The position numbers and the translations under genes are program-made. This document shows, in pieces, positions 18,852-21,313 of a DNA stretch of 34,368 bases. Within the stretch, counting starts at the first letter, position 1; the number at the start of each line of letters is the position of its first letter. Origin of the DNA: Methanohalophilus euhalobius (GTDB lineage Archaea > Halobacteriota > Methanosarcinia > Methanosarcinales > Methanosarcinaceae); the NCBI RefSeq assembly GCF_900215215.1, contig NZ_OBDR01000016.1, forward strand, positions 1 to 34,368, in the 5' to 3' direction. The notes beneath the pieces were generated by a model that worked only from the letters and a program-made list of their open reading frames with translations, was not told the DNA's origin and made no database searches.

Positions 18852-19277
18852 TCAGTATTTTCCTGTAAATTTAGCAATTGATCTGTGCAGACCATGGATG
18901 CTGAAATCCTTCCCCAGGTACATCATAGGACATTTTCCCTTGATTATCTGTATACCAGGGTCCCTCATCTCCTCAATTTCTGGAGTTTCGGTACGCCAGT
19001 GTATCCAGAAATTAGAACATCCTTTTTTTTTGAGAGCCTGCACAAAGTCTGCTGGATCGGAGGTTGTGATTCCCAGTACAGCATTTTCTACATTATCTGG
19101 TATATCATCAATACTTTTTATGTCTCCTTTATCGGGGTTAGCTGATAAATCAAAAACGTACACTTCTTTACCTCTATTATTGAGTTCATCTATAGTGTAT
19201 TTCATTGCTGGTTTGGTATTGTCAGTTATTACTACAAAGGATTGTTTTTCCCAGAAAATTTCCCTATCGTTGTTCAT
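18852..19277 (-). CDS. CoA-binding (YccU-like) Rossmann-fold protein
   Basis: A 141-residue single-domain protein with alternating beta strands and helices: SFVVITDNTKPAMKYTIDEL, GKEVYVFDLSA, IPDNVENAVLGITTSDPADF, GCSNFWIHWRTETPEI, IQIIKGKCPMMYL. The order resembles the CoA-binding domain family typified by YccU and the N-terminus of succinyl-CoA synthetase alpha, including the late Lys-Cys-Pro-Met segment. The usual N-terminal glycine loop is poorly conserved here (VITDNTKPAMK), so CoA binding is uncertain. The start ATG follows AGGAGG, one of the best ribosome-binding sites in the window. It is the likely first gene of an operon with the CDGSH protein. Function unknown. Confidence 0.75.
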   Translation of the reverse strand: MNNDREIFWEKQSFVVITDNTKPAMKYTIDELNNRGKEVYVFDLSANPDKGDIKSIDDIPDNVENAVLGITTSDPADFVQALKKKGCSNFWIHWRTETPEIEEMRDPGIQIIKGKCPMMYLGKDFSIHGLHRSIAKFTGKY

Positions 19278-19699
19278 GGAATTCCTCCTATCAAGTAATA
19301 TTGTACTTCTGGTTACTAACAGATGTCGGTTTTAGAATGTACCAATATGTATGATATCGGGTCGGATTAGACGGGATAATGGAAAATAGGATTAACGTTA
19401 ATCTTTACTTTCTGTTAACCACTGCTTCAAGTGCAAAGAATATATTGCAAATGTACATTTAATGTGGTTCTATAGTTATTGGTTTAATTACTCTTTTACA
19501 ATTACAACTAGTTAATATCTTTTAACTTTTATTTTGCTCTGTTCAATTGGGTTTAAATATGTTGAATGCATATAGAGCAACGTTGTGATTGCATAATTTA
19601 TTATCAGGAATTGGTTTTGTTTTAGGGATAATTTGTATTAATTCCGCCTTCTGATTACTAAAATAAAATTCCTTCATAAAATCTAAATGAGGTATCAAT
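19278..19699. other. Long intergenic region before aIF1A
   Basis: No gene is visible on either strand. It contains a perfect 14-base palindrome (GATTAACGTTAATC, 19390-19403) and very AT-rich sequence that must include the divergent promoters of the CoA-binding-like gene and aIF1A. GTTAAC-like pieces recur near the palindrome (19413-19419). Confidence 0.5.
19390..19403. promoter_or_regulatory. 14-base perfect palindrome
   Basis: GATTAACGTTAATC lies 113 bases upstream of the CoA-binding-like gene and 297 bases before aIF1A. A possible operator; no regulator is assigned. Confidence 0.35.
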
Positions 19700-20035
19700 C
19701 TGGCTTATAACAACTATAATAAAAAAAAGAATAAGAATAAACAGCAGAACGAGGGTGCACAATTTACTAAAGTCCGTACTCCGCGTAAGGACAGGAATGA
19801 GATTGTTGCTACAGTAACCAGGATGCTTGGAGGCAAAAGGCTTGATCTTCAATGTATGGATGGTGTTGTAAGAATGGGAAGAATTCCCGGTTCCCGTAAA
19901 AGACGTATGAGAATACGGGAAGGTGACGTGGTCCTTGCAGTACCTTGGGACATTCAGGATTCAAAAGCCGATGTCGTCTGGAAATACAGAAGACAGGAAG
20001 TCGCCTGGCTTCAGAAAAAAGGTTATCTGAAATAA
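19700..20035 (+). CDS. Translation initiation factor 1A with a CTG start
   Basis: A 111-residue aIF1A. It binds the small ribosomal subunit A site and, with aIF1, helps choose the start codon. It has the basic, Asn/Lys/Gln-rich N-terminal tail ([18 protein letters not shown]), then [20 protein letters not shown], the OB fold ([39 protein letters not shown]) and the closing WLQKKGYLK. Length and sequence match the family only if translation begins at CTG 19700. A TGA stop lies four codons upstream in frame. The codons between are GGT, ATC and AAT. No ATG, GTG or TTG occurs in frame until ATG 19823, inside the conserved domain. GAGGT ends six bases before the CTG, which is ideal spacing. A hairpin follows the gene. 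Confidence 0.9.
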
Positions 20036-20236: not shown

Positions 20237-21313
20237 ATGAGTGAAGAATGGAAAGATCAAATTACTAATCAAATTAACTCTCTTGAAAAGCTCGAAGAAA
20301 TAATCAATCTGACTGAATCTGAAAGGGAAGCCATAAAAACCCTTGATACACACTGGGGTACTACACCTTATTTTGCTTCCCTTATGGACAAGGATGATCC
20401 GGAGTGTCCAATCAGGAAACAGATTGTCCCATCCCTTCAGGAAACTCATAACAGGTATGGGATGAAAGATTACCTTGTCTGGAAAGAAAACAGGGCCACC
20501 GATGAAGTACGCCCTGATAGTATAGCCAGGCAGTATAAGGACAGGGTCGCATTTACGGTTTTCCAGAAATGTGGTATCTATTGTCGCCATTGTTTCAGGA
20601 AAGAACTGGTTGTGAATCATGATCTGAAACTGGATTTTAATGTGGACGATGGTATTGAATGGATTCGCCAGCATCCTGAGGTTCGGGATGTTCTGATAAC
20701 TGGTGGGGATCCGCTTCTTTTATCGGATGAAAAGATTGAATATATTATTGGAAGTCTTCGGGATATTCCCCATGTTGAGATGATTCGTATTGGCTCACGT
20801 TTGCCTATAGTTTTGCCTCACAGGATTACTGATAATCTGAAAAGGATACTGGGTGGATATCATGATGTACCAATTTGGCTGAATACCCAGTGCAATCATC
20901 CCAAAGAGATTACTGATAAAACAAAACGTGCGGTCTATGATCTTGTATCTGCAGGTGTTAACGTAGGTAATCAGGCCGTATTGCTGAAAGGCATAAATGA
21001 TGATGTGCAAACCATAAGGGATTTGCATCAGAAATTATTGACTGCAAGAATCAGGCCATATTATCTGTTCTACTGTGAACCTGCACCGGGAATCGATCAT
21101 TTCCGTACTCCGGTAGAAAAAGGTGCGGAATTGATACGCGATGGTCTGCGTGGGCACACAACAGGACTTGCTCAGCCAATGTATGTAATTGCAACCAACG
21201 TTGGTAAAATTCCTTTGATGCCGGATTATTATATGGTAGATAAAGATGAGGAAAAATATATTCTCAGGAACCATCGGGGTGAATTAACGGAAATCCCGAA
21301 CATACCCGAGTAA
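20237..21313 (+). CDS. KamA-family radical SAM aminomutase
   Basis: A 358-residue radical SAM enzyme of the lysine 2,3-aminomutase family. The cluster motif is CGIYCRHCFRK (CxxxCxxC, about residues 112-119). ITGGDPLLL, GSRLPIVLPHRIT, NTQCNHPKEIT and NQAVLLKGINDD follow in the family order, and they include the PLP-binding region. Such enzymes move an amino group from carbon 2 to carbon 3; in methanogens AblA makes beta-lysine for the osmolyte N-acetyl-beta-lysine. Two points argue for caution. It is shorter than the roughly 415-residue classical KamA. Where that enzyme has the Asp pair that holds the lysine side chain (CDLS and VVDAPGG), this one reads CEPA and VIATNVG. No acetyltransferase (ablB) is adjacent, so the substrate may differ. 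AAGGAG lies 12 bases before the ATG. Confidence 0.85.
   Translation: MSEEWKDQITNQINSLEKLEEIINLTESEREAIKTLDTHWGTTPYFASLMDKDDPECPIRKQIVPSLQETHNRYGMKDYLVWKENRATDEVRPDSIARQYKDRVAFTVFQKCGIYCRHCFRKELVVNHDLKLDFNVDDGIEWIRQHPEVRDVLITGGDPLLLSDEKIEYIIGSLRDIPHVEMIRIGSRLPIVLPHRITDNLKRILGGYHDVPIWLNTQCNHPKEITDKTKRAVYDLVSAGVNVGNQAVLLKGINDDVQTIRDLHQKLLTARIRPYYLFYCEPAPGIDHFRTPVEKGAELIRDGLRGHTTGLAQPMYVIATNVGKIPLMPDYYMVDKDEEKYILRNHRGELTEIPNIPE

Follow-up and report, generated by a model that had tools for sequence, protein, structure and literature searches.

Comparative evidence strongly supports a CUG codon at 19700..19702 on the forward strand of the window as the real start of the aIF1A gene of Methanohalophilus euhalobius, selectively retained across most of the Halobacteriota. 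The window is the whole stretch of DNA that was analysed, 34,368 nucleotides in length. The factor aIF1A is essential in archaea, where it takes part in start-codon selection, and it is a homologue of IF1 and eIF1A, not of IF3. As read from its sequence, the gene encodes an initiation factor and begins with a rare, weak start codon other than AUG that has been conserved, and the arrangement suggests that synthesis of the factor is tied to the strictness with which the ribosome selects start codons.

The product of the gene matches TIGR00523 with 115.3 bits against a cutoff of 102.9 in a profile search (i.e. it is aIF1A), and has a homologue of solved structure, 1jt8 (E 7e-29). It is the single match to PF01176 in a profile search of the genome (64.6 bits, cutoff 30.2); among named organisms, the genome is closest to Methanohalophilus sp. 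RSK and M. profundi. The coding sequence occupies 19700..20035 on the forward strand, comprising 111 codons followed by TAA. On direct reading of the sequence, the frame is closed three codons 5′ of the CTG by a TGA (19688..19690, forward strand), the letters GA of which are shared with a Shine-Dalgarno sequence GAGGT at 19689..19693 on the same strand. The latter lies in the register GGT-N6-CTG, with the 9-mer GGAGGTGAT beginning 12 bases 5′ of the start codon. The initial annotation had described this stop codon, the GAGGT six bases before the CTG, and the codons GGT, ATC, AAT and CTG as the only ones preceding the conserved Ala-Tyr, and had taken ATG 19823 within the core domain to be the next standard start. 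All of these hold on the coordinates. There is no earlier ATG, GTG or TTG in the frame, and the first in-frame ATG (19823..19825, forward strand) is codon 42, lying within the OB-fold core, and is an implausible start.

The intergenic leader region of aIF1A (19278..19699, forward strand) was searched for an inverted repeat, and none was found. Folding around the start showed no excess when compared with simple shuffles (mean z 0.01). An out-of-frame ATG located 13 bases upstream (ATGAGGT, opening a frame of seven codons in the genus) was rejected as a candidate element; it is no more frequent than base composition predicts, and it is not conserved. The neighbouring gene 5′ of the leader (18852-19277) is on the opposite strand, and therefore aIF1A presumably has its own promoter. 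On the 3′ side the window contains a radical SAM lysine 2,3-aminomutase-like gene (20237-21313), unlike many relatives, where a RIO1-kinase-like gene is found near aIF1A.

Within the genus, GGT-N6-CTG was found in the orthologue or nearest aIF1A copy of all seven other genomes. One copy in the genus (L008 of genome G002) has an ATG two codons 5′ of the CTG, abutting the Shine-Dalgarno sequence, and the CTG is retained. The same layout of Shine-Dalgarno sequence and start codon is present in nearly all copies in Methanosarcina (with CTG, or in some TTG), in the genes of Methanolobus, Methanococcoides, Methanosalsum and Methanohalobium, in the other families of the order (f2-f5), in a Methanotrichaceae-like family (f6) and in a further family (f9). 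The last of these looks Archaeoglobi-like, because dsrA scored above cutoff in two of five members tested and mcrA was absent from three of four. CTG was also found in ten additional families, with one or two aIF1A genes examined in each. The survey of aIF1A starts was confined to the Halobacteriota; there CTG is the predominant start in each of the six families sampled from the class, and likewise in the Archaeoglobi-like family and the majority of the remaining methanogen-like families, while ATG is used by haloarchaea-like genomes, Methanimicrococcus and some Methanomicrobiales. The natural ATG replacements (L034 and Methanimicrococcus) fall at or adjoin the homologous CTG position, which marks that position as the start. 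The proposal in the initial annotation that aIF1A begins at CUG is thus strongly supported by conservation over most of the phylum. It had named ATG starts in all close relatives as the observation that would tell against it, and the comparison gave the opposite outcome. The conservation of the codon also rules out a sequencing or assembly error as the source of the CTG.

Some unusual copies were noted. A second and divergent copy of aIF1A is present in two genomes of the genus (L002 in G007 and L010 in G002), and its nearest start is GTG, not CTG. In Methanohalophilus profundi SLHTYRO (L003 and L012) the run of A after codon 7 has nine nucleotides rather than eight, giving a frameshift that could be either a sequencing error or poly-A slippage. 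A Methanosarcinaceae genome (genus g5) has an extra copy with one in-frame TAG (G114:C1:2640085-2640273).

Across 227 distinct aIF1A genes of the Halobacteriota the start is CTG in 180, TTG in 24, ATG in 20 and GTG in one; the two unassigned genes are L206, in which direct reading gives CTG, and the frameshifted L003. Note that the assignment of starts in this count made use of the Shine-Dalgarno sequence, whereas a codon-blind test did not. In the latter, the strongest match to the anti-Shine-Dalgarno complement GGAGGTGAT was located, and the in-frame codon was then read at each distance from it. At 12 bases from the start of the 9-mer the codon was CTG in 112/133 cases and TTG in 5/133, and with a shift of one base (i.e. 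at 13 bases) it was CTG in 11/17. A comparable majority codon was seen at no other distance. Within these genes, leucine is encoded by all six of its codons (CTG 27.7%, TTG 7.3%; n = 1213), so that the CTG at the start is not behaving as a leucine codon. For 160 of the 199 assigned non-AUG starts there is no ATG, GTG or TTG back to the upstream in-frame stop, and the Shine-Dalgarno register is 12 in 179 of them. With a Shine-Dalgarno sequence defined by at least four matches, register 12 was found in 179/204 non-AUG genes against 0/20 ATG genes, an association that is partly circular since assignment of the non-AUG starts used the Shine-Dalgarno sequence, although its absence from the ATG genes was read directly. 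Three of the 20 ATG genes have a sequence of at least four matches, at other spacing. It seems that the CUG depends on strong recruitment, or that the Shine-Dalgarno sequence and the codon are tuned together.

The background level of CTG starts was taken from neighbouring genes in the aIF1A loci and from a genome-wide pattern scan. CTG accompanies the best Shine-Dalgarno sequence in 115/160 aIF1A ORFs, compared with 3/531 ORFs that belong to other families at these loci, the latter including some spurious antisense ORFs. The start of aIF1 (SUI1) is ATG in 30/30 genomes of the phylum, and also in this genome, and aIF2β has an ATG within reach in 27/30. One aIF2β gene (L279 of G020) has no ATG near the conserved N-terminus, with only GTG codons upstream. 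The pattern GAGGTN6CTG occurs 40 times in this genome, but resembles a gene start only at aIF1A and at one MBL-fold hydrolase (L307/L330; G000:C14:126126 onward), which has AGGAGGT-N6-CTG and where no standard start precedes codon 8. In two of three congeners this hydrolase starts with TTG; in several genera beyond, where a start could be read, it has ATG. The aIF1, neighbouring-gene and MBL-fold controls thus indicate that conservation of the CTG is specific to aIF1A, and not general to CTG starts. Together with the conservation itself, and the ATG genes that lack a Shine-Dalgarno sequence in fixed register, they argue for the CUG being a real start under selection.

Start selection in archaea involves aIF1, aIF1A and aIF2 on the 30S subunit (PMC7531240, PMC6412873). 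We suggest that initiator Met-tRNA would start aIF1A at CUG 19700, placed there by the strong Shine-Dalgarno sequence in its fixed register. The latter would bring in the 30S subunit, with the yield then set by the extent to which the pre-initiation complex (aIF1, aIF1A and aIF2) tolerates a mismatch at the first base, so that an increase in stringency would lower the production of aIF1A. This might hold the factor at a set level, regulated either on its own or relative to aIF1, and negative feedback of the kind that IF3 exerts through the AUU of infC is the most likely means. We infer that control by start-codon stringency is the best explanation for the retained CUG, and we lean slightly towards a CUG start with stringency-sensitive synthesis that holds the level of aIF1A, most likely by negative feedback. 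From the sequences, such autoregulation fits an initiation-factor gene, a weak codon, its persistence, and the plain ATG of aIF1. It also has precedents in infC and eIF1, and aIF1 of Sulfolobus solfataricus destabilises non-AUG complexes, as cited in PMC6237735.

Several points count against this. In archaea it is aIF1 that is documented to discriminate between start codons, and here its gene starts with ATG. The effect of aIF1A hinges on aIF1: in reconstituted complexes of P. abyssi without aIF1, aIF1A stabilises the initiator tRNA, and with aIF1 it makes the complex more dynamic (PMC6237735). In addition the N-terminal tail of yeast eIF1A favours suboptimal sites (PMC5756025), and from these two sets of data the sign of the feedback could go either way. 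TTG, the start in 24/227 genes, is an ordinary archaeal start codon that is probably less discriminated, and haloarchaea-like lineages and Methanimicrococcus manage without CUG. A broader proposal, which we put forward only tentatively, is that aIF1A and its CUG form an archaeal stringency-sensing feedback loop that arose before Methanosarcinia and Archaeoglobi diverged, making it a third type of autocontrol of translation initiation after those of infC and eIF1.

Autocontrol by stringency has two serious rivals, fixed tuning and cross-control by aIF1. In the former, the CUG and the strong Shine-Dalgarno sequence would simply provide a fixed, modest output of aIF1A with no feedback. The same conservation is predicted, and the pairing of a strong Shine-Dalgarno sequence with CUG, while ATG genes have none in fixed register, is expected if the two signals compensate. 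However, GTG, TTG, a weaker Shine-Dalgarno sequence or a weaker promoter could equally give a low fixed output, and this explanation does not account for why CTG itself has persisted across many families and several paralogues; we consider fixed tuning possible, if unlikely. In cross-control the CUG would sense the activity of aIF1, with aIF1A matched to aIF1 or to the supply of initiator tRNA and aIF2. This agrees with aIF1 being the factor documented to discriminate (PMC6237735), and the ATG start of its own gene leaves it outside such control, yet the same step is also acted on by aIF1A, and this explanation appears rather improbable. We give little credence to the CTG being a cost-free ancestral codon that persisted by chance. 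The simplest history would be one origin followed by vertical inheritance, but around the retained codon both the leader and the N-terminal tail have varied freely, the start of the other CTG gene (the MBL-fold hydrolase) turns over while the register in aIF1A is fixed, and neutral persistence at the level of a class is unlikely. Initiation elsewhere, e.g. at the ATH/GTH codon two triplets 5′ (GGT-ATT-AAT-CTG), where ATT, ATC or ATA is common and AUU is the start codon of infC, is scarcely credible, because other lineages have GTT, GTC, GAT or GGT there, the codon abuts the Shine-Dalgarno sequence with zero spacing, and the ATG replacement of L034 adjoins the CTG position.

To our knowledge, and in the open-access papers that were searched, a CUG start of aIF1A conserved over most of an archaeal phylum is unreported. 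No paper that we found there names the start codon of aIF1A, absence from the open-access literature being weak evidence, and the open-access reviews of archaeal initiation and recoding that were searched do not mention a CUG start. Of the unannotated small ORFs of M. mazei, 5% are reported to start with CTG (PMC11456600). A gene finder that accepts only ATG, GTG and TTG would overlook the start of this essential factor or put it in the wrong place. The CUG of aIF1A also provides a natural reporter for testing start-codon discrimination in archaea. If the feedback by stringency is correct, then bacteria, eukaryotes and archaea would each have a different initiation factor under such control.

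The closest parallel systems are infC, eIF1 and sigR. IF3 limits its own synthesis through the AUU or AUC start of infC (PMC5472188 and references therein). Like infC, aIF1A encodes an initiation factor and has conserved a non-canonical start of the class that is rejected by fidelity factors. By contrast, infC is the bacterial IF3 gene, with AUU or AUC and a known negative translational feedback, whereas aIF1A is archaeal and uses CUG, with feedback that is only inferred. The eukaryotic eIF1 (SUI1), likewise a small component of this pre-initiation core, limits its own synthesis through the stringency of start-site selection, acting at an AUG in poor context (PMC5756025, PMC6237735); this operates in eIF1 rather than eIF1A, and aIF1 has a plain ATG here. 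In Streptomyces, sigR resembles aIF1A in that an extended, conserved Shine-Dalgarno sequence (AGGAGGTG) precedes a rare start codon, GTC, which is also conserved and is controlled by IF3 (PMC5472188). However, the target there is a sigma factor in one bacterial genus, whereas in aIF1A it is the initiation machinery itself, over most of an archaeal phylum.
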